Made by a program: the position numbers and the translations under genes
The notes under the pieces: model-generated
What the model saw: the letters and a program-made list of their open reading frames with translations, nothing else
The model's database searches: none
What the model was told of the DNA's origin: nothing
Assembly (NCBI GenBank): GCA_017745595.1
Contig: WMBV01000016.1
Span: forward strand, 1-64,000
Source of the DNA: Bordetella petrii
Lineage (GTDB): Bacteria > Pseudomonadota > Gammaproteobacteria > Burkholderiales > Burkholderiaceae_B
Reading direction: 5' to 3'
Length of the DNA: 64,000 nucleotides
Part shown: piece after piece, positions 20,569 through 63,945 of the stretch
How the letters are laid out: the number at the start of each line of letters is the position of its first letter
Numbering within the stretch: the stretch's first letter is position 1

Positions 20569-22119
20569 TTATCTCATGCCGTCGGGCTGCACAGAAGGAA
20601 AGCGCGCCCGGGCCTTGGCCTCGGCCGCCCCGTTGGCGCGCACGAAGCGCCGTGCATCGTCGCGGCCGGCTTGGAAGTTCCAGTCGGGAAAATGGCCCGA
20701 TGCGGCCGCGACCTGCTTCAGGAACAGGCGGCGTTTCTGGCTGGCCAGAATGTCCTGATGCAGCGTTTCGGGGTTCCAGCGATCCAGCACCAGCGCCAGC
20801 AGGCGCTGCACATCCCCCTGGCGGGCGGGGTCTTGCGCCAGGTTGCGCAGTTCCCGCGGGTCTGTCGCAAGGTGGTAAAGCTGCAACGGATAGCCGTGGG
20901 TGTAGATCAGTTTGTAGTCGCCGTCGCGCACCATCCGCGCCGGCGCGATCACTCCCATATCGGTGTATTCGGACAACACGGGTCGGGGAGGCACCCGCGC
21001 TTCGTTGCCCGCCAGCAACGGAACCAGCGAGCGGCCGTCGATGGGGTCGACGTAATCGGGTTCGCCCCCGGCAAGCTCGAGCAAGGTGGGCAGCAGGTCG
21101 AGCAAAGTCACGGGCTGCCGTACGCGCTTGCCGCCCGCCAGGCTCTCGCCCGGCGCGTGGATCAGCAACGGTACGCGTACCGAGGGCTCGAAGAAGTTCT
21201 GCTTGTACCACATGCCCCGTTCGCCCAGCATTTCGCCGTGATCCGACGTAAAGACCACCACCGTGTCGTCGGCCAGCTGGCATTGCCGCAGCGTGTCTAG
21301 CAAGCGCCCCACCTGGTCGTCAATGTAGGAAATCATGCCGTAATAGGCGTGGCGGGCGTTGCGCAACTGGGCTTCGGTAATGGGCGTAGTGTCGCCCCCA
21401 TGCGACAGGTGCAGCCATTGGCTGAGCGCGTCGCGCTCATGTTCCGGAATGGGGCCGACGGCGGGCATATCGATGGCGCCGTGATCGTAGCGGTTCCAGT
21501 ATTCTGCGCTGATGGTAAAGGGCGGATGGGGATGGCTGAACGACACCGTCAGGAAAAACGGACGGTCATCGGTGTCGCGCGCCAGGTCGTACAGTTTTTG
21601 TCGGGCGAAGTACGCCACTTCGTCGTCGTAGTCGAGCTGCAGGCTGCGCGCGCATTGGCCGGCCTGCGTCACGTTGCGCAGGCTGATGCCCGACGGCTTG
21701 TCCGTGGGCCCCGCGCGCCAATTCGGCGTCCAGGAAAAGTCGGCCGGATAGATGTCGGTGACCAGCCGTTCTTCGTACCCATGCAGCTGGTCGGGGCCGA
21801 TGAAGTGCATCTTGCCGGCCAGTATGCCGCGATAACCCGCCAGGCAAAGATAGTGCGCCAGGGTGGGCGTGGACGCCGCGAATTCGCTGGCGTTGTCGTA
21901 GGCGCCTATGGTGGTGGGCAGCCGCGAACTCAGCATCGAAAAGCGGGACGGCGCGCAGATGGGCGAACCGCAGTAGGCGTTTTCGAACACCACGCCGGTG
22001 TCGGCCAAGGCCTGCAGATGGGGCGCGCGCACCACGTTGCCGCCATACATGGGCAAGGGCATGGCCGCCATCTGGTCGGCCATGATGAAGAGAATATTGG
22101 GTTGCTTGGCTCGGTCCAT
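20569..22119 (-). CDS. betC: choline-sulfatase (sulfatase family, FGly type)
   Basis: A 516-residue cytoplasmic sulfatase without signal peptide. The formylglycine motif is C55-A-P-S-R59. The metal Asp is in MADQ (13-16), which is characteristic of choline sulfatases. SFSHPHPPF, SDHGEMLGERGMWYK and a C-terminal 'choline sulfatase' tail with W-N-P-E-T and PDWNFQ also match BetC. The reaction is choline-O-sulfate to choline plus sulfate, feeding glycine betaine or sulfur nutrition. GGGAG precedes ATG 22119; the longer frame to 22515 runs through repeat DNA and is rejected. No betA/betB is next to it. The upstream gene is a Bug receptor separated by palindromic repeats. The Cys must be converted by an FGE such as the one at 30661. 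Confidence 0.88.
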   Translation of the reverse strand: MDRAKQPNILFIMADQMAAMPLPMYGGNVVRAPHLQALADTGVVFENAYCGSPICAPSRFSMLSSRLPTTIGAYDNASEFAASTPTLAHYLCLAGYRGILAGKMHFIGPDQLHGYEERLVTDIYPADFSWTPNWRAGPTDKPSGISLRNVTQAGQCARSLQLDYDDEVAYFARQKLYDLARDTDDRPFFLTVSFSHPHPPFTISAEYWNRYDHGAIDMPAVGPIPEHERDALSQWLHLSHGGDTTPITEAQLRNARHAYYGMISYIDDQVGRLLDTLRQCQLADDTVVVFTSDHGEMLGERGMWYKQNFFEPSVRVPLLIHAPGESLAGGKRVRQPVTLLDLLPTLLELAGGEPDYVDPIDGRSLVPLLAGNEARVPPRPVLSEYTDMGVIAPARMVRDGDYKLIYTHGYPLQLYHLATDPRELRNLAQDPARQGDVQRLLALVLDRWNPETLHQDILASQKRRLFLKQVAAASGHFPDWNFQAGRDDARRFVRANGAAEAKARARFPSVQPDGMR

Positions 22120-22186
22120 GGGTTGCTCCCTGGTCAGGATGCGGGCTCCTCCGGCGGCAGCCGGACGGCGGGCTTTAGTTAGCCTA

Positions 22187-22270
22187 AGGTGTCTGACACC
22201 CTTGCGGATGTCAGACACCTGCGCAGAGAATTTGTCAGGTGTCTGGCTCCCGCAAGGGTGCCGGACACCG
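22187..22270. repeat. palindromic intergenic repeat pair (copy 4)
   Basis: Units at 22187-22220 (GGTGTCTGAC / GTCAGACACC) and 22236-22270 (GGTGTCTGGC / GCCGGACACC) lie between the choline-sulfatase start and the Bug gene stop. They fill much of the 173-bp gap, so they could separate two otherwise co-oriented transcription units. Confidence 0.85.
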
Positions 22271-22292
22271 CCGGTTAGAAGAACCCGTCTCG

Positions 22293-23264
22293 TCAGTCTA
22301 TGCGGGCGCCGGCTTTTGCCACGATCTGCGCCCAGCGCTGCTGTTCTTTCAATATGGTCTGGGCAAACTGCTTGGGCGGCATCGTGACCACGTCGGCGCC
22401 ATTCTGCTTGAAAAAGGCGGCCATATCCGGCTCGGCCAGGCTGGCGACCGTGGCGTCGTACAGGGTTTGAATCACCGCGTCGGGCGTGCCCGCCGGCGCC
22501 ATCAGGCCGTACCACGATTCGACCACGAATCCGGGCAGCCCGGCTTCCTGCATCGACGGATATTGCGGCGTGGCTTCAGAGCGTTTGCCCGTGGTCACGG
22601 CCAATGCCCGCAGGGCGCCGGATTGCACATGGGGCAACGCCAGCGGCGTATTCACGAACGCGAAATCCACATGCCCCGCGATCAGGTCGGTGACCGCCTG
22701 CGTGGCGCTTTTATAGGGAACGTGCAATACGTTGATGCCGGCCAGCTGTTTCAGCAGTTCCCCCGACAAATGGTTGGACGTGCCGTTGCCGAACGACGCG
22801 AAACTGTACTTGCCCGGGTTGGCCTTGGCCGATTTGATGAACTCGTCCAACGACTTGAACGGCAGCTTGCCATTCAGCACGAACAGGTTGGGCACGGAAG
22901 CCACCATGGTGATGGGGGCGAAATCTTTGTTGGCATCGAACGGCATCTGGGCATAGACCGCGGGATTGATCGTATGCGTGCCGGTGGTGGCCATGACCAG
23001 GGTATAGCCATCGGGCGCGGCGTGGGCGACTTCCGCCGTGCCCACGTTGCCCCCGGCGCCGGTCACGTTCTTCACGACGATCTGCTGGCCCAGCCGCCGG
23101 CTCATCGAATCCGCCAGTTTGCGCGTCAGGATATCGACGCCGCCGCCGCTGGCGAACGGCACGACGATGGTCACGGGTTTGGCCGGAAAATCGGCCTGGG
23201 CCATTGCCGGGGCGGTACACCCCAGTGCGACGGCGATACTCAGCATGCGGGCAATCTTCTTCAT
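22293..23264 (-). CDS. Bug-family (TctC) periplasmic solute receptor
   Basis: A 323-residue receptor. The signal peptide runs to about AMA (22), then FPAKPVTIVVPFASGGGVD, APDGYTLVMATTG and LMAPAGTPD, all family landmarks. AGGAG lies ten bases before the ATG. It is flanked by a LacI-type regulator upstream and the choline-sulfatase gene downstream on the same strand. No TctA/TctB is present. Confidence 0.92.
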   Translation of the reverse strand: MKKIARMLSIAVALGCTAPAMAQADFPAKPVTIVVPFASGGGVDILTRKLADSMSRRLGQQIVVKNVTGAGGNVGTAEVAHAAPDGYTLVMATTGTHTINPAVYAQMPFDANKDFAPITMVASVPNLFVLNGKLPFKSLDEFIKSAKANPGKYSFASFGNGTSNHLSGELLKQLAGINVLHVPYKSATQAVTDLIAGHVDFAFVNTPLALPHVQSGALRALAVTTGKRSEATPQYPSMQEAGLPGFVVESWYGLMAPAGTPDAVIQTLYDATVASLAEPDMAAFFKQNGADVVTMPPKQFAQTILKEQQRWAQIVAKAGARID

Positions 23265-29003: not shown

Positions 29004-30647
29004 ATGCAAAGCGACGCGGCACGCAAGAAGCCCAATATTGTCCTGATCCTGAACGACGACATGGGGTATTCGGACATCGGCTGCTATGGCGGCGAGATCG
29101 ATACGCCCAACCTGGACCGCCTGGCGGCCGGGGGCCTGCGGTTCTCGCAGTTCTACAACACGGCGCGCTGCAGCCCATCGCGGGCGTCGCTGCTGACCGG
29201 GCTGCATCCGCACCAGACGGGCATAGGCATCCTGACCTACGATTTCGGGCCCGAGGGGTATGCCGGCAACCTGAACAAGCAGTGCGTCACCATTCCGCAG
29301 GCCCTGAAGGCAGGCGGGTACCGCGCCTACATGAGCGGCAAGTGGCATGTGGCCGGCAACCTGGTGCGGCCCACCGACGCCTGGCCCCTGCAGCGGGGCT
29401 TCGACGAGTTCTTCGGCACCATCATCGGGGCCGGCAGTTTTTACGATCCGAATACCCTGACGCGCGGCAACGAGAACATCGAACACGAGGCGGCCCGGGA
29501 CCAGGAGTTCTTCTATACCGATGCCATCAGCGACCAGGCGGTGGACTATATCCGCGAACACCAGCGGCTGTACCCCGGCCAGCCGTTCTTCGAGTATGTG
29601 GCCTATACCGCGCCGCACTGGCCCCTGCATGCCCACGATGAAGACATTGCCAAATATCGCGGCCGTTTCGACCAGGGCTGGGATACCTTGCGCGCCGAAC
29701 GCCTGCGGCGCCTGGTCCAGAGCGGCATTCTGAAAGATTCGTGGCCGCTCAGCGGGCGCGATCCCAGCCAGCCCGAATGGAGCGAGGCGGAAGAAAAAGC
29801 CTGGCTGCTGCGCTGCATGGAAGTCTATGCCGCGCAGATCGACCGCATGGACCAGGGCATCGGGCGCATCCTGGCGGCCCTGGAAGAAACCGGGCAACTG
29901 GACAACACGCTGGTCATTTTCTTGTCCGACAACGGCGCATGCGCCGAAGATATCCCCGAAGGGGTGACGGTGGACGAGCTGGTGAACAACCTGATGATCG
30001 CCAAGTCGCACACGCGCGCGGGCGAGCCGGTGCGGTTCGGCAACAATCCGTCCATCATGCCCGGCCCCGAAGACACCTACCAAAGCTACGGCACGGCCTG
30101 GGCCAATCTGTCGAACACCCCGTTCCGCCTGTACAAGCACTGGATCCATGAAGGCGGCATCGCCACGCCGCTGATCATGCACTGGCCCGCGGGTATCGCG
30201 GACCGGGGCGGCATCCGCCACAGCCCGGGCTACCTGCCCGACATCATGGCGACTTTGCTGGATGTCACCGGCGTACCGTATCCGGCGCAATGGGAAGGCA
30301 ACGACATCGCGCCGCTCGAAGGCCACACGCTGCGTCCGGTGTTCCAGGCCGAAACCGATAGCCGGCCGCCGATGTTCTGGGAGCACGAGGGCAATGCGGC
30401 GGTGCGCATCGGCAAATGGAAGCTGGTGAAGAAGTATCCCGAGCCTTGGGAGCTGTACGACATGGACGCCGACCGTACCGAACTGCAGAACCTGGCCCAG
30501 GCTCATCCCGACCGGGTGCGCGAGATGGCGGCGCTGTACGACGAGTGGGCCGCGCGCTGCGGTGTCATTCCCCGCGAGAAAATCCTGGACCTGATGCAAC
30601 AGCAGAATACCCCGCCGGCGTTCTGGGAAGAGCAAGAACAGAACTGA
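29004..30647 (+). CDS. cytoplasmic arylsulfatase-type sulfatase (FGly type)
   Basis: A 547-residue alkaline-phosphatase-superfamily sulfatase. The formylglycine motif is C56-S-P-S-R60, metal residues are in LNDDMGYSD (16-24) and SDNGA, and the second signature is G-Y-R-A-Y-M-S-G-K-W-H. There is no signal peptide (MQSDAARKKPNIVLILND), so it should act in the cytoplasm on a sulfate ester that has been imported intact. Position directly after a LacI-controlled sugar importer and 13 bp before an FGE gene supports a sulfated saccharide or glycoside as substrate. Sulfate would be released for sulfur supply or simply removed to free the carbon skeleton. Confidence 0.9.
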   Translation: MQSDAARKKPNIVLILNDDMGYSDIGCYGGEIDTPNLDRLAAGGLRFSQFYNTARCSPSRASLLTGLHPHQTGIGILTYDFGPEGYAGNLNKQCVTIPQALKAGGYRAYMSGKWHVAGNLVRPTDAWPLQRGFDEFFGTIIGAGSFYDPNTLTRGNENIEHEAARDQEFFYTDAISDQAVDYIREHQRLYPGQPFFEYVAYTAPHWPLHAHDEDIAKYRGRFDQGWDTLRAERLRRLVQSGILKDSWPLSGRDPSQPEWSEAEEKAWLLRCMEVYAAQIDRMDQGIGRILAALEETGQLDNTLVIFLSDNGACAEDIPEGVTVDELVNNLMIAKSHTRAGEPVRFGNNPSIMPGPEDTYQSYGTAWANLSNTPFRLYKHWIHEGGIATPLIMHWPAGIADRGGIRHSPGYLPDIMATLLDVTGVPYPAQWEGNDIAPLEGHTLRPVFQAETDSRPPMFWEHEGNAAVRIGKWKLVKKYPEPWELYDMDADRTELQNLAQAHPDRVREMAALYDEWAARCGVIPREKILDLMQQQNTPPAFWEEQEQN

Positions 30648-30660
30648 GCCCGCGCGCGAC

Positions 30661-31641
30661 ATGGACCACGACGGCGCGCGCAAATCGTGCTGCATGCCAG
30701 CCGCCGGCCCCTCGGCGGACGCGGGGGCGCCGGCCGTTGCCGCGTTGGCCGCGACGGCAGCGGCCGGCCGGCCCGATCGGCTGGTGTGCATCGCGGGCGG
30801 CGAATTCCGCATGGGCAGCGACTATGCCGGCGGTTTCGCGGCCGACGGCGAGGGCCCGGTGCGCAGCGTGATCGTGGGCAGTTATCGCATATCCGCCACG
30901 GCGGTCACCAACCGCGAGTTCGGCGATTTCGTGCGGGCCACGGGATACGTGACCACCGCCGAACGGCTGGGCGCCTCGTTCGTCTTTTATCTGCAGGTGC
31001 CGCTGGCGGCGCGCCAGGCCATCCGGCAGGTGCCGCGCGGACTGCCATGGTGGCTGAACATCGAGCAGGCCTGCTGGCAGCGGCCCGAAGGGCCGGGTTC
31101 GCATATCCACGCGCGGCTGGACCATCCGGTGGTGCATGTGTCGTGGGACGACGCCCAGGCCTATTGCGCCTGGGCCGGGCTGCGCCTGCCCACCGAAGCG
31201 GAATGGGAACACGCCGCGCGTGGCGGCCTGGACCAGAAACTGTACCCGTGGGGCGATGCCCTGGAGCCCGGCGGGCAGCCGTGCTGCAACATCTGGCGCG
31301 GGAATTTCCCAAACGAGCCGCGGGCCGGCTGGCAGCCCGGTACGGTGCCGGCCCGGTGGTTCGAACCCAATGGCCATGGCCTGTATAACGTATCGGGCAA
31401 TGTCTGGGAATGGTGCGCGGATTGGTTCTCGCCCACTTACCACACCGCTACCGACAGCCGCGATCCGTTCCAGGGCACGCCCACCGGGCGGCGGTCGATG
31501 CGCGGCGGCTCGTTTCTGTGCCATGACTCGTACTGCAACCGCTACCGGGTGGGGGCGCGCAATGCCAACACGCCGGCCAGTACGTCCAGCAACGCGGGCT
31601 TCCGGGTGGCGGGCGCCGCACCCGTGCCGCCGCCCCGCTAA
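30661..31641 (+). CDS. formylglycine-generating enzyme (FGE, SUMF1 family), cytoplasmic
   Basis: A 326-residue SUMF1-type enzyme that oxidises the Cys of C-x-P/A-x-R in sulfatases to formylglycine, using O2 and copper. The two active-site cysteines are visible as C287 and C292 in RGGSFLCHDSYCNRYR. LPTEAEWEHAARGG and NVSGNVWEWCADWF are family landmarks. An N-terminal S-C-C-M-P (9-13) resembles the paired-Cys leader of several bacterial FGEs. No signal peptide. It is directly downstream of the sulfatase at 29004 and would also activate the choline sulfatase at 20569. Confidence 0.93.
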   Translation: MDHDGARKSCCMPAAGPSADAGAPAVAALAATAAAGRPDRLVCIAGGEFRMGSDYAGGFAADGEGPVRSVIVGSYRISATAVTNREFGDFVRATGYVTTAERLGASFVFYLQVPLAARQAIRQVPRGLPWWLNIEQACWQRPEGPGSHIHARLDHPVVHVSWDDAQAYCAWAGLRLPTEAEWEHAARGGLDQKLYPWGDALEPGGQPCCNIWRGNFPNEPRAGWQPGTVPARWFEPNGHGLYNVSGNVWEWCADWFSPTYHTATDSRDPFQGTPTGRRSMRGGSFLCHDSYCNRYRVGARNANTPASTSSNAGFRVAGAAPVPPPR

Positions 31642-57698: not shown

Positions 57699-59567
57699 TC
57701 AGCCGCTTTCTGGCACCCAGGCGCCCTGAGGCGGCTGAAACCCGTCCGCGCGGGGCTCCGCCGCGTCGGCCGACAGGCGCGGCGGCAGCGTCAGCGTCAC
57801 CCGCGTGCCGTCGGCCAGCGCCTCGATGCGGACCGAGCCGCCCAGGAAGGCGGCGCGCCGGCCCATGTTTCGCACGCCCGTTCCGCCATTGACCGCGCCG
57901 GCATAGGAAACGCCGTCATTGTCGATGGTGATCAGGCCTTCGCCTTGCGGGCCGACGCCGCCGCGCACCGCGATGCGCGTGGCCGGCCCGTGGCGCAAGG
58001 CATTGGTGACGGCTTCTTGCACGATGCGTAGCACGTTCAGCGCGTGTGCCGGCGTCACGCCGGATATCTCGGGCAGCCGCAGCATCGACCATTCCAGCCC
58101 CACGCCCAGGCGCTTCAGCTGGGGTTCGAGCCGCTCGCGCAGGCTGGACAGCGCGGCCACGAGCTCGCGGTCGCCGATGTCCAGGGAATGGATCACGAGG
58201 CGCAGGTCGTCGAGCGCCTCGCGCGCGGTGTGCTCGATGCCGGCCGAGTTTTCACGTTCGGCCAGCGCGATGATCGATGCCAGGTGGCCGCTCAGGCCGT
58301 CGTGCAGGTCTACCGTCAGCCGGTGGCGCTCTTCGCTGCGCACGCGGCCGGCCGCTACGATGCGCTCTTCTTCGTGCAGGCGCCGCAGTTCCGCCTCGCG
58401 CGCGGCCAGCCGCTGCTTGAGATGGGCGTTGGCGCCGTCCACGCGCATCAGGCTCAGGCCCAGCCGGCGCATCAGGATTACCGCGATCGCCACGATCAGC
58501 AATTGGCGATAGTAAAGCGACAGGAAAACCGGGCCGTCGACCTTGCCGGCGACCAACGCGCCGTCGTGCAGCGTGGCCAGGGCAAAGAAGCACAGCGGCA
58601 GCAGCAGCAGCCAGGCTTCCTGTACCTTTTTCGCCAGCGCCCCCCAGGCCGAGATGAGCATCGTGATCAGCGGCGAGACCACCATGATGGGCATTACCAC
58701 GGCGAACAGCACGACGCGGGGCGGCGCCACGCCCAGCGCCATCGCCAGCAGGCAGGCGCCGGGCACGGCCACCACGCAGGCGCGCAGCCAGCGCGGCGGC
58801 GTGGCGCCGTTGATCTTCAGCGCGATGATGTGCAGGATGAAGACGCTCGACATGCTGACCGTGAAGGCATAAGGCAGCCAGCCGAACACGCCGGGAAAGA
58901 TGTCTGCCAGCATGCCCGCATACGAGGCGGTGGACACCACGTGCAGCAGGAACAGCCAGCCGTACAGCGATTCCTGGGGCCGGTAGAGCCAGGCCATCAG
59001 CGTCGCGATGGCCAGCAGCAGCTGGCAGGCCAGCACCATCATGCGCGTGTGCTCCAGCACCAGGATACGCAGCCGGTGATACGGGGCGATCTGCTGCGCA
59101 GTGCCCACGTACACGGGCGACAGGTAGCCGCGCGTGACGCCTGGCGCCTCGAGCAGGATGTCGACCACATGGCGGCCCGCGGCCAGCTGGCGGCCCGACA
59201 ACGGCACCAGGGCCGACACGCCCAGCGTGATGCCCGGGATCAGCGAGTTCGCGCCGGTATCCAGCGCCACGTCGCCGTCCACCGCGATGACGGCGCGGTA
59301 GCTCAGCATGGGAATGAACAGGTATAGCTGCTGCGCGGGCGCCTGGGCCAGCTCGAAGACCATGCGGTAGTAGCCCTGGGCGCGGCCGCGGCCCTGTACG
59401 TGCGGCAGGCCGACCAACGCGGAGGCGTTGTCGGCCGCCGTGAACTGCGCCTGGTCGATGACCTGGGTGTGCCGCGGTACCGGCAGCGTCAGCCACAGCG
59501 GGGTGCTGGCCACCGCCGTTGCCAGCACGGCGAGCACGGCCCAGAACCAGCGCCGGCCTACAGCCAT
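57699..59567 (-). CDS. sensor histidine kinase, 7TM-type, HisKA_3 family
   Basis: A 622-residue sensor. One N-terminal span (about 8-28) leads to a periplasmic jelly-roll-like domain (about 35-165). Seven hydrophobic spans follow (about 168-370), then a coiled coil (380-410), a HisKA_3 dimerisation domain with the phospho-acceptor H422 in V-D-L-H-D-G-L-S-G-H-L, and an HATPase domain (NVLRIVQEAVTNALRHG onward). The layout recalls 7TMR-DISM receptors, which sense small extracellular ligands. ATG 59567 overlaps the regulator stop by ten bases. Divergence from the sulfatase/FGE pair suggests it senses a sulfated compound. Confidence 0.9.
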   Translation of the reverse strand: MAVGRRWFWAVLAVLATAVASTPLWLTLPVPRHTQVIDQAQFTAADNASALVGLPHVQGRGRAQGYYRMVFELAQAPAQQLYLFIPMLSYRAVIAVDGDVALDTGANSLIPGITLGVSALVPLSGRQLAAGRHVVDILLEAPGVTRGYLSPVYVGTAQQIAPYHRLRILVLEHTRMMVLACQLLLAIATLMAWLYRPQESLYGWLFLLHVVSTASYAGMLADIFPGVFGWLPYAFTVSMSSVFILHIIALKINGATPPRWLRACVVAVPGACLLAMALGVAPPRVVLFAVVMPIMVVSPLITMLISAWGALAKKVQEAWLLLLPLCFFALATLHDGALVAGKVDGPVFLSLYYRQLLIVAIAVILMRRLGLSLMRVDGANAHLKQRLAAREAELRRLHEEERIVAAGRVRSEERHRLTVDLHDGLSGHLASIIALAERENSAGIEHTAREALDDLRLVIHSLDIGDRELVAALSSLRERLEPQLKRLGVGLEWSMLRLPEISGVTPAHALNVLRIVQEAVTNALRHGPATRIAVRGGVGPQGEGLITIDNDGVSYAGAVNGGTGVRNMGRRAAFLGGSVRIEALADGTRVTLTLPPRLSADAAEPRADGFQPPQGAWVPESG

Positions 59568-60271
59568 ATCAGGCCCAGGCGCGAGGCCTCGAACACTGCC
59601 TCGGAACGGTTGCCCACCTGCAGCTTGCGGTAGATGTTCTTGATGTGTACGGGCACGGTCTGGCGCGACAGGCCAAGCTGCTCGGCCACTTCGGCGTAGG
59701 TCAGGCCTTTGGCGATGCCCCACAAGATCTCTGTCTCGCGCGGCGTCAGGGCGGCGGTTTCCCGGCAGGGCGCCGAGGCCTGGGCCGGCTGTCCGCGTTC
59801 GCCCAGCCGCCGCACGATGACGCGCGCGATCGACGACGAAATCGGCGAGCGCCCGGCGCGCAATTCTTCAATGGCTTCGATCAGGTCGGCCGGGCCGACA
59901 TCTTTCAACAGGTAACCGGTCGCGCCCGCCTCAATGGCGGCGATCACGATCTCGTTGTCGGCCAGGGCCGAGACCACCATGGCTTCGGCCCGCGGATTGA
60001 TCGCGCGCAGGCGGCGGATACCCTGGATGCCGTGGCCGTCGGGCAGGCGCAGGTCGGTGATGAGCAGGTCGACGGGCTCGCTTTGCAGCACGGCCATGGC
60101 CTGGTCCAGCGTGCCGCAGGCCGCGACCAGGCGGCCGCCCCGCCAGCCCGACAGGATCGACGCGAAACGCAGGCGCAGGGGCTCGTCGTCTTCGACCAGC
60201 AGCGTGCGGCAGAGCGTCGCGTTGCTGTCCCGCCCGGGGTCGGCGCCCGGGCGTTCACTGCCAGATTCCAT
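59558..60271 (-). CDS. NarL/LuxR-family response regulator
   Basis: A 237-residue regulator. The receiver domain (about 22-140) has acidic E27-D28-D29 and phospho-acceptor D73 in LLITDLRLPDG; the LuxR-type HTH (about 170-232) reads LTPRETEILWGIAKGLTYAE, then V-A-E-Q-L-G-L-S-R-Q-T-V. ATG 60271 is chosen because an AAGGGTAAGG site precedes it; ATGs at 60289 and 60349 are possible. It is transcribed before the histidine kinase and diverges from the sulfatase gene. The TGTCAC iterons at 60325-60400 are its likely target. Confidence 0.9.
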   Translation of the reverse strand: MESGSERPGADPGRDSNATLCRTLLVEDDEPLRLRFASILSGWRGGRLVAACGTLDQAMAVLQSEPVDLLITDLRLPDGHGIQGIRRLRAINPRAEAMVVSALADNEIVIAAIEAGATGYLLKDVGPADLIEAIEELRAGRSPISSSIARVIVRRLGERGQPAQASAPCRETAALTPRETEILWGIAKGLTYAEVAEQLGLSRQTVPVHIKNIYRKLQVGNRSEAVFEASRLGLIWL

Positions 60272-60324
60272 CGACCTTACCCTTTTCATGGTATAGGCCA
60301 GCGGCGGGCCGACCTTTAATCTAA

Positions 60325-60400
60325 TGTCACTAGTTTTATCTATTGTCACCAGTTTTCTTAGTTTGTCACGAGACTGGTCGACTTGTCACGCTACTTGTCA
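60325..60400. promoter_or_regulatory. five TGTCA direct repeats, four of them with ~20-bp period
   Basis: TGTCAC begins at 60325, 60344, 60364 and 60384, spacings of 19, 20 and 20 bases, and a fifth partial copy (TGTCA) begins at 60396. Spacing near two helical turns puts the first four on one DNA face. They fill the 162-bp space between the response-regulator and sulfatase starts. The array is probably a regulator-binding site set controlling the divergent promoters. Confidence 0.7.
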
Positions 60401-60433: not shown

Positions 60434-62785
60434 ATGCTCGCAAGAACTTCCCTGCCGGCGGCCGCCCTGGTGGCCCTGGCCGCGCTGCTGGCGGCGTGTT
60501 CCGACGGCGGGTCGGACGACCCGCCCACGCCTGTCGCTTCGGACAAGCCCAACATCCTGTTCATCGTGCTGGACGACCTGGGCGTGGACCAGATGGTGTC
60601 CTACGGCTACGGCGGCGCCGCCCCGCCCAGGACGCCCAACCTGACGGCCATTGCCCAGGCCGGCGTGCAGTTCCGCAATGCGTGGGCGATGCCCGACTGC
60701 ACCCCCACGCGCGCCACTTTCTTTACCGGCCGCTATCCGTCGCAGAACAACGTGCTGAACGCCCTGGTGGCGACCGACCTGGCCAATTCCGCGCCATCGC
60801 CGTACGAGATGACGCTGCCCAAGCTGCTGAAGGCCCAGGGCTACACCAGCGCGCTGATCGGCAAGATGCACCTGACCGGCTCGGACCTGAACGGCGGGTT
60901 CAACCTGCCCTACGGCTACGACAGCATGTGGAAGCTGGGCTGGGATTATTTCGACGGCTTCCTGGACGGCGCGCCCTATAACATCGATACCCGGGCCGGC
61001 CTGGCGACCAAGGGCGCCGACGTCGACAGCGGCCCGTACAAGTGCGGCTTCGTTCCCACCACGAGAATCGACGCCGCCAACGGCGCCGATGCCGGCGCGT
61101 GCTATTTCGCCAACGGCAGCTGCTCGCAGCTCGCGATAGGCGGCGAAGTCGCCACGCCGGGCCGCACCTGCATGGAACGCGGCGGCATCCTGGACCCGGG
61201 CCAGTCCTGCCAGGCCACGACGCCCAGCTACATCGACTTCACGGCGCAGAATGGCTATTACACCGGCCGGTGGGTAAAGAGCACCGCCCACGGCAACGGC
61301 CAGGTCATCCCGGCGTCCGACCCGTCTTCGCGCGGCTACCGCAGCATCCTGGAAACCGAGCGCGCCCTGGAATGGGCCGGGCAGCAGCCCGACGACAGGC
61401 CCTGGATGCTGACGGTGGGCTATTCGGCCATCCATACGCCCCTGCAGGTGCCGCCCGTCGAGCTGATCGCCGACGACACGCCGGGCCGCAACGACAATCT
61501 GGTGTGCTCGCCATTGGCCGACTCGGAAAGCACGCCGGTGCTGACGCAGCTTACCGACCTGGTCGACGCCCATCTCATCACCAACCTGATGATCGAGGCC
61601 GTGGACAGGAAGATCGGCGACCTGCTGGTGGGTCTGGACCTGGCCAAGTACAACACCGACGGCACGCTGGACTACCACCCCGAGCAAACCAATACGGTGG
61701 TCGTCGTGGTGGGCGACAACGGCACCTATGTGAACAGCGTCAAGTTCACGTCGCCGGGCAAGTTCGACCCCATGCGCGCCAAGGCGTCGCCTTACCAGAC
61801 GGGGGTGTGGGTGCCGCTGCTGGTGGCCGGCCCGATGGTCGCCTCGCCCGGGCGCGAGGTGCCGCACATGGTGGGCTCGGTGGACCTGTACCGGCTGTTC
61901 GCCGATATCGCGGGCGCCGACGTGGACGGGGCCACCCCGGCCAATCGCCCGCTCGATGCGCAACCCATGCTGGCCTACCTGACCGATGCGGGGCAGGCCG
62001 GCATCCGCGGCACCAACTTCACCGAAATGGGTACCAACCTGCGGGCGGTGGGCTCGGCCGATGACCAGTATGCCTGCGTGGTGCCCGCCGCCAACAATGT
62101 GTGCACCACGCTGTTCCCGCAAAAGGGAGTGTGCCTGGCCCAGGGCGGCATCTGGTACGGCGACAACCAGTCCAGCGAAACCAGCGGCGTGCCCGCGACG
62201 GGCTATCACAATTGCTGCCAGGTGCAGGCGTACCGGTTGGCCCGCGGCGAAGCCACCAACTTCCTGCCCACCGCCACCAAGGCGGTCACCGACGGCACCT
62301 ACAAGCTGGTGCGCCAGACACGCAACCAGTGCGATCCAGTTATGGGCAATGCCCCCGACCCCAGCGCCTACGCCTATAGCGCCACCGGCTACGACGTGAC
62401 CGACGAGCTTTACCAGATCGACACGGCTACCCCCGATCCCAAGCTGGACAAGGACGGCAGCCAGCTGGCCGCCGTGGCCCCGCCGCCGCTGGACACCGCG
62501 TCGCTGAACGCCGCGCAGCAGCAGGCCTACGCCAATCTGAAGTCCGAGATGGAACGGCACGATGCCGTGGCCAGCTACAACCAGGACTACGACACGGTGA
62601 ATTGCCCGGGCGATGGCAACCGCGACCTGGTGGTGGACCAGCAAGACCTGGATAACTGGCGGGAACTGAGCCAGCTGAACAACGGCCAGTCGAGTTGGTA
62701 CGACTTCAACCACGATGGCAAGACCGACGCGGCCGACCAGGCCATTATCCAGAATCACATGGGCCAGACGTGCTCCGCCGTATGA
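60434..62785 (+). CDS. sulfatase lipoprotein with C-terminal dockerin-like EF-hand pair
   Basis: A 783-residue exported sulfatase. The lipobox is L-L-A-A-C22, the mature N-terminus is Asp/Pro-rich, and the sulfatase core starts KPNILFIVLDDLGVDQ. The formylglycine motif is C89-T-P-T-R93 and VVVVGDNGTY supplies metal ligands. The chain is rich in Cys (inserts around 200-260 and 550-650), fitting disulfides in the periplasm or on the outer membrane. Residues about 720-775 hold two calcium-loop-like segments (D-G-N-R-D-L-V-V-D-Q-Q-D and D-F-N-H-D-G-K-T-D), a type-I-dockerin-like pair bracketed by Cys. AAGGAG precedes ATG 60434. The stop overlaps the FGE gene by ATGA. Substrate unknown; a large extracellular sulfate ester is plausible. 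Confidence 0.85.
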   Translation: MLARTSLPAAALVALAALLAACSDGGSDDPPTPVASDKPNILFIVLDDLGVDQMVSYGYGGAAPPRTPNLTAIAQAGVQFRNAWAMPDCTPTRATFFTGRYPSQNNVLNALVATDLANSAPSPYEMTLPKLLKAQGYTSALIGKMHLTGSDLNGGFNLPYGYDSMWKLGWDYFDGFLDGAPYNIDTRAGLATKGADVDSGPYKCGFVPTTRIDAANGADAGACYFANGSCSQLAIGGEVATPGRTCMERGGILDPGQSCQATTPSYIDFTAQNGYYTGRWVKSTAHGNGQVIPASDPSSRGYRSILETERALEWAGQQPDDRPWMLTVGYSAIHTPLQVPPVELIADDTPGRNDNLVCSPLADSESTPVLTQLTDLVDAHLITNLMIEAVDRKIGDLLVGLDLAKYNTDGTLDYHPEQTNTVVVVVGDNGTYVNSVKFTSPGKFDPMRAKASPYQTGVWVPLLVAGPMVASPGREVPHMVGSVDLYRLFADIAGADVDGATPANRPLDAQPMLAYLTDAGQAGIRGTNFTEMGTNLRAVGSADDQYACVVPAANNVCTTLFPQKGVCLAQGGIWYGDNQSSETSGVPATGYHNCCQVQAYRLARGEATNFLPTATKAVTDGTYKLVRQTRNQCDPVMGNAPDPSAYAYSATGYDVTDELYQIDTATPDPKLDKDGSQLAAVAPPPLDTASLNAAQQQAYANLKSEMERHDAVASYNQDYDTVNCPGDGNRDLVVDQQDLDNWRELSQLNNGQSSWYDFNHDGKTDAADQAIIQNHMGQTCSAV

Positions 62786-63945
62786 ACGACCGTTCCAGCA
62801 AGAAAAACCGCCTGGGCCTGGCCGCGGCCGCCTGCGCCGCCATCGTGGCGGCGGGCGGGCTGGCCGCGTGGGCGCTGACCGCGCCGGCCCAAAGCGTGGG
62901 GGTTGCCGGGGTGGCCAGGCCCATCCTGGGCAATGGCGTCGATACGCCCAGGGACATGGCCTGGGTGCCGGGCGGCACTTTCCTGATGGGCAGCGACAGC
63001 AAGCAGGCCAGCGCCAATGAACGCCCGGCCCACCCGGTGCGGGTGCGCGGCTTCTGGATGGACGTGACGGACGTCACCAACGACCAGTTCGCCGAATTCG
63101 TGCGGCAGACCGGCTATGTGACCACCGCGCAGCGCAAGCCCGATTGGGACACCGTGCGCGTGCAATTGCCGCCCGGCACGCCGAAACCGCCCGACAGCGT
63201 GCTGGTGCCCGGCGGCATGGTGTTCACGGGCACGGCCGCGCCGGTGCGGCTGGACCAGTACTGGCAATGGTGGCGCTTCGTGCCCGGCGCGGACTGGCGC
63301 CACCCGCAGGGTCCGGGCAGCAGTATCGAGGGCAAGGGCGACCATCCCGTGGTGCAGGTCAGCTACGAAGACGCGCAGGCCTATGCCAGGTGGGCGGGCA
63401 AGCGCCTGCCCACCGAAGCCGAATGGGAATTCGCCGCGCGCGGCGGCCTGGAGCAGGCCGACTACGCCTGGGGCAACGAGCTGGCGCCCGGCGGCACGAA
63501 GCGCGCCAATTACTGGGACGCGGACCAGGGCGCCTTTCCCGTGCTGCCGCCGGGCAGCACGGTCGCCGCGCCGGGCACGCAGCCCGTCAAGACGTATCCC
63601 GAGAATGCCTACGGCCTGTACGACATGACCGGCAATGCCTGGCAATGGGTGGCCGACTGGTATCGGGCCGATTATTTCGCGCGGCAGGCCGGCAAGGCGG
63701 GCAAGGGCACGGCCATCAGCAACCCGGTGGGTCCGGCCGACAGCTACGACCCCTCTGACCCGGGCGTGCCGGCCAACGCGCCGCGCCGGGTCATCCGAGG
63801 CGGCTCGTTTCTGTGCAACGAGGATTTCTGTACGTCGTACCGCCCCAGCGCGCGGCGCGGCGCCGACCCCTACAACCCGATGTCGCACCTGGGCTTCCGG
63901 CTGGTCAAGGATGCCCCGCCCGCGGTCGCCCGCGCGGGAGACTGA
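62782..63945 (+). CDS. membrane-anchored FGE-like (SUMF1 family) protein
   Basis: A 387-residue SUMF1-domain protein with an N-terminal cytoplasmic basic stub (RSSKKNR) and a hydrophobic segment (11-33) ending A-P-A-Q, i.e. a signal peptide or anchor; the catalytic domain should face the periplasm. The FGE cysteine pair is kept: C345 and C350 in RGGSFLCNEDFC. LPTEAEWEFAARGG and MTGNAWQWVADWY are family landmarks. Unlike the cytoplasmic FGE at 30661 it lacks the N-terminal Cys-Cys. Translational coupling to the exported sulfatase suggests it activates that protein after secretion. A non-FGE SUMF1 role is possible but the retained Cys pair argues for catalysis. Confidence 0.85.
   Translation: MNDRSSKKNRLGLAAAACAAIVAAGGLAAWALTAPAQSVGVAGVARPILGNGVDTPRDMAWVPGGTFLMGSDSKQASANERPAHPVRVRGFWMDVTDVTNDQFAEFVRQTGYVTTAQRKPDWDTVRVQLPPGTPKPPDSVLVPGGMVFTGTAAPVRLDQYWQWWRFVPGADWRHPQGPGSSIEGKGDHPVVQVSYEDAQAYARWAGKRLPTEAEWEFAARGGLEQADYAWGNELAPGGTKRANYWDADQGAFPVLPPGSTVAAPGTQPVKTYPENAYGLYDMTGNAWQWVADWYRADYFARQAGKAGKGTAISNPVGPADSYDPSDPGVPANAPRRVIRGGSFLCNEDFCTSYRPSARRGADPYNPMSHLGFRLVKDAPPAVARAGD

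Follow-up and report, generated by a model that had tools for sequence, protein, structure and literature searches.

Introduction

Formylglycine-generating enzymes (FGEs) are described as proteins of the endoplasmic reticulum (ER) in eukaryotes but of the cytosol in prokaryotes (PMC4505483), and a second account describes Cys-type sulfatases as typically cytosolic and Ser-type sulfatases as periplasmic (PMC3920027). Here, we analyse a 64,000-nucleotide stretch of Bordetella petrii DNA – the window, which is the first 64 kb of one contig (WMBV01000016.1, here C7) in a genome of 6.1 Mb – with a locus at 60434-63945 that encodes a predicted lipoprotein sulfatase (S1) and an FGE with a predicted N-terminal anchor (FGEx), followed directly by a second sulfatase gene (S2). 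The account of FGE compartments is reportedly that of Knop et al. 2015, and that of the two sulfatase types is said to be by Toesch et al.

Exported sulfatases are served by anSME, a radical-SAM enzyme that acts in the cytosol prior to export, and PvdO is an exported protein with a role other than that of an FGE. OCTIN and PorK are envelope or periplasmic proteins of the FGE fold that lack the catalytic Cys pair (PMC5915273, PMC12421860). Unmodified choline sulfatase is reported to keep residual activity, and Escherichia coli to convert Cys via machinery that is still unidentified (PMC6189696). A literature search over titles and the starts of abstracts, in which subscription journals are thinly covered, yielded no catalytic exported bacterial FGE among the matches listed.

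A sequence-only reading of the window had proposed that the FGE-like protein acts on its partner sulfatase after export, in an ER-like arrangement, and that a second FGE serves cytosolic sulfatases. The comparisons below make it quite probable that Sec-exported sulfatases receive their formylglycine in the periplasm from an exported lineage of FGEs, and that S1, FGEx and S2 constitute an export-coupled maturation unit.

Results

The S1, FGEx and S2 genes

The genes of the putative unit are as follows:

60434..62785, + strand: S1, Cys-type sulfatase and predicted lipoprotein, 783 aa; lipobox C22; nucleophile C89 in CTPTR; Cys-rich; weak dockerin-like C-terminus
62782..63945, + strand: FGEx, formylglycine-generating enzyme, 387 aa; N-terminal anchor/signal helix at about 8-33; catalytic C345/C350
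63949..64000, + strand: start of S2, second predicted lipoprotein Cys-type sulfatase; lipobox C25; C94 in CSPGR; runs on to C7:66141

S1 and FGEx overlap in an ATGA common to the S1 stop (62785) and the FGEx ATG (62782), and S2 (C7:63949-66141, 730 aa, extending beyond the window) starts 3 nt past the FGEx stop. The ATGA coupling, sulfatase lipobox (C22) and wealth of Cys (16 in S1) that the sequence-only reading had pointed out are all borne out. S1 matches the Pfam Sulfatase family (E=1.2e-28), has the fold of a type I sulfatase (Z 31.4 to 6hr5, with a model whose predicted local distance difference test score, pLDDT, is only 73), and carries the CxPxR motif in the form CTPTR. The lipoboxes end in LAAC22 (S1) and LSAC25 (S2). 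An alignment of 21 S1/S2-type proteins shows no variation at the lipobox Cys, the nucleophile Cys or 12 further Cys, and the further Cys, being even in number, are compatible with six disulfides.

An Asp at lipobox position +2 is the rule for inner-membrane retention. As a retention signal of S1 and S2 it was rejected, the +2 residue being variable (D, G, S, N and others in 46 sequences). Both proteins end in CPGDGNxDxVVxxxDL...DGxTDxxD repeats that resemble a type I dockerin or calcium-binding pair, with Pfam dockerin matches at the two C-termini below cut-off (E 0.08 and 0.21). One S2-type sulfatase elsewhere (L055:6332-8590; loci are numbered with L and genomes with G) has CSLGR in place of CSPGR.

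FGEx as a catalytic-type FGE

FGEx matches the Pfam FGE-sulfatase family (E=8e-78), and its only Cys are at 18, 345 and 350. In alignment the latter two coincide with the Cys pair of FGEs of known structure – the closest being those of Thermomonospora curvata, Streptomyces coelicolor and human – and are invariant in 40/40 aligned FGE rows. Its AlphaFold model (pLDDT 88.8) superposes on the T. curvata enzyme (5nxl) over 272 residues at 1.9 Å and 49% identity with a Z score of 37.2; scores against catalytic FGEs are 35.5-37.2, whereas the nearest non-FGE rows are SUMF2 (31.2), CalU17 (31.1), PorK (26.8) and PvdO (26.2).

The genome encodes three FGE-domain proteins: FGEx, the cytosolic-type FGEc (see below) and an EgtB (597 bits, NCBIfam cut-off 360). 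FGEx itself scores far below cut-off with the NCBIfam GldK, SenA, EgtB and PvdO models, the best being GldK at 126 bits (cut-off 350), and these scores together with the lower structural matches rule out its assignment as EgtB, PorK/GldK or PvdO. By sequence and modelled fold FGEx is thus a true catalytic-type FGE, with a predicted activity.

Export prediction and the N-terminal anchor

FGEx begins MNDRSSKKNR, followed by an uncharged run, and residues 8-33 are modelled as a helix; the N-terminal signal or anchor and the C345/C350 pair that had been read from the window alone both stand. The anchor is present in 98/98 assessable members of the FGEx clade. Attachment as a lipoprotein via C18 was ruled out, this residue lying inside the hydrophobic run and being missing in Bordetella ansorpii.

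For wider comparison, 160 distinct FGE sequences of at least 60 bits were taken from the fetched loci L041-L148 and L241-L300. All 160 have the Cys-pair motif, and with L097 dropped as truncated 159 were assessable. Export was called by a rule of our own, using a 12-residue hydrophobic window with positive charge before it and trying any start codon. A stricter threshold initially gave 110 exported and 50 non-exported FGEs, 8 of the latter low in Cys; it was loosened after clade members (L073, L085, L119, L120) were missed. The FGE of L266 was reassigned by hand as cytosolic (it has a false upstream start, and its congeners have none), as were sulfatases of L073, L241 and L338 as exported and of L259, L262 and L267 as Tat-like (Tat, twin-arginine translocation). 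The final division is 117 predicted exported FGEs and 42 non-exported.

Positive charge before the hydrophobic core exceeds that after it in 101 of the 117 exported FGEs (equal in 9, reversed in 7), a count that leans toward such a bias because the export rule itself demands at least +1 before the core. Since net charge is higher before the hydrophobic segment, the catalytic domain is predicted to lie outside.

Twin-arginine-like (RR) motifs stand ahead of the anchor in 46/117 exported FGEs (e.g. L088, L101, L126), and some exported FGEs may, judging from these motifs, travel folded by Tat. As a general route for exported FGEs Tat was rejected, the motif being confined to those 46 and not found in FGEx of the window.

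Cys content and sulfatase partners

Exported and non-exported FGEs differ in the number of Cys in the catalytic domain. The 117 exported proteins have two (97 proteins), three (17) or four (3), and the 42 non-exported proteins have four (1), five (23), six (10), seven (6) or eight (2). We count the low number as a probable signature of an oxidising compartment, and hence toward export of FGEx.

The neighbouring sulfatases differ likewise. A Cys-type sulfatase lies within 3 kb of 89 exported FGEs, and in every case the nearest one is exported (41 with a Sec signal, 38 lipoproteins, 10 with an RR motif); it is non-exported in 0/89. The 31 cytosolic FGEs with a Cys-type sulfatase in the same range adjoin 15 non-exported, 9 Tat-like and 7 Sec or lipoprotein sulfatases, and a further 11 have none.

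Distribution among related genomes

Among 101 related genomes, 22 encode a relative of FGEx at E<=1e-40; 20 of these belong to the same family, with identities of at least 61%, and in the congener G004 the gene is 92% identical. Named loci were taken from the best 80 of 210 candidates, a set that partly overlaps the 20 family genomes and may leave out records of the window's own genome. These best 80 are mostly from Burkholderiales, with genera including Bordetella, Pusillimonas, Castellaniella, Pigmentiphaga, Cupriavidus, Paraburkholderia, Caballeronia, Pandoraea and Polynucleobacter, among others, and the closest by the FGEx gene is B. ansorpii (83% identity in the best segment). The sequence-only reading had called for a search for the same pair in other genomes. 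The FGEx type recurs in the 20 family genomes and in the best 80 of 210 loci, which puts the observation far beyond chance.

Strong matches to the S1/S2-type sulfatases are present in 13/101 relatives, all 13 with FGEx, and one more (G013) has a weak match. At loci without S1/S2-type genes, the neighbouring sulfatase is often shorter and has a Sec signal in the loci that were read. General secretion (gsp) genes flank 11 of 33 distinct S1/S2-type FGEx-clade loci, this one included, versus 2 of 65 loci without such genes (98 loci, with flanks of differing length).

An exported Cys-type sulfatase was found in 20/20 FGEx family genomes, comprising 36 proteins identified by rule, L338 by hand and the G026 variant. 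Nineteen genomes were scored by motif; G026 was scored by its CSLGR variant, since its sole exported sulfatase (that of L055) escapes the motif rule. Several of these sulfatases lie away from FGEx, as in G010. In eight relatives without FGEx, exported Cys-type sulfatases number 0/20 (0/17 by rule and 0/3 by eye); the three are from 19 motif-less sulfatase-domain hits in these controls, which by eye comprise 3 Cys-type proteins without a signal, 7 Thr-type and 9 not typed. The difference of 20/20 and 0/8 genomes gives a Fisher p=3e-7, a value that ignores relatedness and applies to 20 genomes picked for having FGEx.

No anSME over cut-off was found in the 20 FGEx genomes, ten of which have weak sub-threshold matches. 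Other catalytic-type FGEs occur in four (G000, G035, G054, G057); none was found in the other 16, and the remaining FGE-domain hits that were read lack the Cys-pair motif (weak split hits in G026 and G035 were left unread). G010, assembled as one contig, has FGEx as its sole FGE-domain protein, and both of the Cys-type sulfatases found there are exported. At L201 and L360 (G036, G045), and at L202 and L358, there is a further FGE-domain protein without the Cys-pair motif; those of L201 and L360 begin with a hydrophobic stretch near the N-terminus.

Non-exported Cys-type sulfatase-fold proteins (CGPSR, CMPNR, CAPSR, CVPTR and others) are present in 6/8 control genomes (G002, G003, G006, G007, G019, G025). 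A search of these six, which did not extend to anSME, revealed no FGE carrying the catalytic Cys-pair motif. Such proteins may be either unmodified or matured by a still unidentified route, and their occurrence in genomes for which no catalytic FGE came to light means that FGEx is not necessarily required for them.

Phylogeny

A tree of 91 rows was built from 30 hand-picked members of the 98 in the FGEx clade, all 19 other exported FGEs and all 42 cytosolic FGEs. The exported and cytosolic-type labels require a minimum of two changes on this tree (shuffled mean 30). Holding the 49 exported rows together improves the likelihood by 12.7, with a p-AU of 0.71. Exported FGEs may accordingly form one deep lineage that spans the window's class and one or more further classes of the phylum, presumably for the most part Alphaproteobacteria. 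An independent-pairs test found only 1-2 pairs and has no power.

FGEc and other genes of the window

Additional features relevant to the locus are:

30661..31641, + strand: FGEc, cytosolic-type FGE without an export signal; catalytic GGSFLCHDSYC
29004..30647, + strand: sulfatase without a signal peptide; CSPSR; 13 nt upstream of FGEc
20569..22515, - strand: open reading frame with a further non-exported sulfatase-fold protein; CAPSR; true start probably internal, at MDRAKQPN
57699..59723, - strand: sensor kinase, divergent from the operon; adjoins the LuxR-type response regulator
59558..60349, - strand: LuxR-type response regulator, divergent from the operon; adjoins the S1/FGEx operon

The second FGE at 30661 had been read as serving the cytosolic sulfatases of the window; it starts 13 nt after 29004-30647, which has no signal peptide. 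FGEs of the FGEc clade (30661-31641 of the window, L067, L292, L295, L299, L300) carry Cys-Cys or Cys-Gly-Cys near the N-terminus, in one case followed by a His-rich stretch; possibly this motif is a copper-acquiring tail. The kinase and LuxR-type regulator pair at 57699-60349 is a possible regulator of the S1/FGEx operon. Beyond the window, S2 is followed on the opposite strand by type II secretion system (T2SS) genes (L041:10174-18974 on C7) with Pfam matches to components F, E, D, N, M and K.

Discussion

The sequences themselves show that FGEx belongs to the FGE family, has the active-site pair and begins with an anchor or signal, that S1 and S2 carry lipoprotein signals and CxPxR recognition motifs, and that the genes are coupled. 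From these we infer the periplasmic location, the activity, its timing relative to folding, the copper supply and any role of the T2SS. S1 and S2 would cross the inner membrane unfolded via Sec, and FGEx would sit anchored on the periplasmic side of that membrane and, with copper and O2, turn C89 of S1 and C94 of S2 into formylglycine before or during oxidative folding, with the remaining Cys of both forming disulfides. The finished lipoproteins would stay in the envelope; where the genes adjoin a T2SS operon, the folded sulfatases would perhaps be secreted by it. FGEc would separately serve the cytosolic sulfatase encoded just upstream. Maturation after export, as first proposed, is a prediction that gains support from the comparisons: the anchor is conserved, no partner among 89 is mismatched, and within the family genomes compared exported Cys-type sulfatases were found only with FGEx. 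The proposed division of labour is favoured by the same kind of evidence, and the placement of FGEc beside a non-exported sulfatase is confirmed.

Some observations weigh against this interpretation. Conversion of S1 and S2 could instead take place in the cytosol, ahead of Sec export, through FGEc or through FGEx prior to its own export, with the FGEx anchor being incidental or targeting the translocon. FGEc is present in the same genome, and the seven cytosolic-type FGEs elsewhere in the phylum that adjoin Sec or lipoprotein sulfatases make it seem possible that maturation there takes place in the cytosol, with Sec export following. Exported FGEs with an RR motif may fold in the cytosol first, as any Tat-exported FGE would. 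We nonetheless regard cytosolic conversion of S1 and S2 as unlikely, in that 16/20 FGEx genomes have no other catalytic FGE found and none of the 20 has anSME over cut-off (a weak split hit in G026 is unread), the anchor and low Cys number are kept clade-wide, and the nearest Cys-type sulfatase to an exported FGE is never a non-exported one. Among the other adverse points, 28/117 exported FGEs have no Cys-type sulfatase within 3 kb, and the export rule tries all start codons, demands positive charge and was loosened post hoc. Exported FGEs fit one clade, so that the low Cys numbers and the matching of partners are long-conserved correlates and do not amount to independent events, and part of the co-occurrence of FGEx and sulfatases could stem from transfer of the operon. 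The 20 FGEx genomes also encode at least 30 non-exported Cys-type proteins – a minimum, as the motif rule misses some proteins (20569-22515 of the window; CVPAR types) – and many of these genomes lack a catalytic cytosolic FGE; another maturation route, or a cytosolic pool of FGEx, may conceivably act on them.

Two further explanations accept that FGEx is exported or leave its role elsewhere. FGEx could be a structural or redox protein of the FGE fold, akin to PorK/GldK, OCTIN or PvdO, and the published exported proteins PorK and OCTIN are without the Cys pair and thought not to be FGEs. This is very improbable for a protein of a set in which 160/160 sequences have the Cys pair, whose Z scores to catalytic FGEs (35.5-37.2) exceed those to SUMF2, CalU17, PorK and PvdO, which falls far below the NCBIfam cut-offs for GldK, SenA, EgtB and PvdO, and which is genetically coupled to CxPxR sulfatases. 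Even harder to sustain is the idea that neither S1 nor S2 uses formylglycine, or that some unidentified system matures them, with FGEx helping something else. The residual activity of unmodified choline sulfatase and the unidentified Cys conversion machinery of E. coli (PMC6189696) lend it some plausibility, as do the non-exported Cys-type proteins in 6/8 control genomes where no catalytic FGE was found; yet in the eight FGEx-less controls exported Cys-type sulfatases number 0/17 and 0/3, though non-exported ones are present.

With exported maturation by FGEx thus preferred, a broader proposal can be made with moderate confidence: that Pseudomonadota of at least two classes share an old lineage of periplasmic copper-dependent FGEs, which acts on Sec-exported and lipoprotein sulfatases once these have been translocated and in some species forms the first station of an ER-like line of formylglycine formation, disulfide formation and type II secretion. 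If true, the lineage would break the rule stated in PMC4505483, under which eukaryotic FGE is an ER protein and prokaryotic FGE a cytosolic one, and bacterial sulfatase maturation could no longer be assigned simply to the cytosol. It would also offer a bacterial test bed for FGE in an oxidising compartment, with its questions of thiol substrate, copper supply and disulfide competition, and in principle a means of aldehyde tagging proteins already exported by a Gram-negative cell.

Among known systems, anSME differs from FGEx in being over cut-off in none of the 20 FGEx genomes. PorK/GldK, OCTIN and PvdO, which lie outside the cytosol, share the FGE fold with FGEx, and PorK and OCTIN lack the catalytic Cys pair. 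FGEc and its kin (L067, L292, L295, L299, L300) are catalytic-type like FGEx, and those of the window, L067, L292 and L295 have a non-exported Cys-type sulfatase next to them; unlike FGEx, FGEc and its kin have no export signal, contain 5-8 Cys with a Cys-rich N-terminus, and form a separate clade. The bacterial aerobic FGEs of S. coelicolor (2q17, 6muj) and T. curvata (5nxl, 6s07) share the fold, the Cys pair and 47-49% identity with FGEx, whereas prokaryotic FGE is generally described as cytosolic (PMC4505483) and FGEx has a predicted anchor and fewer Cys than the cytosolic-type FGEs compared here. The eukaryotic enzyme SUMF1 likewise has the same fold (Z 35.9 to 1y1e, 46% identity) and the same Cys pair, and works in an oxidising compartment, the ER lumen (PMC4505483), in likeness to the predicted site of FGEx. 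FGEx differs from SUMF1 in being bacterial, apparently membrane-anchored and encoded with its substrates, and in having no catalytic-domain Cys beyond the active pair.

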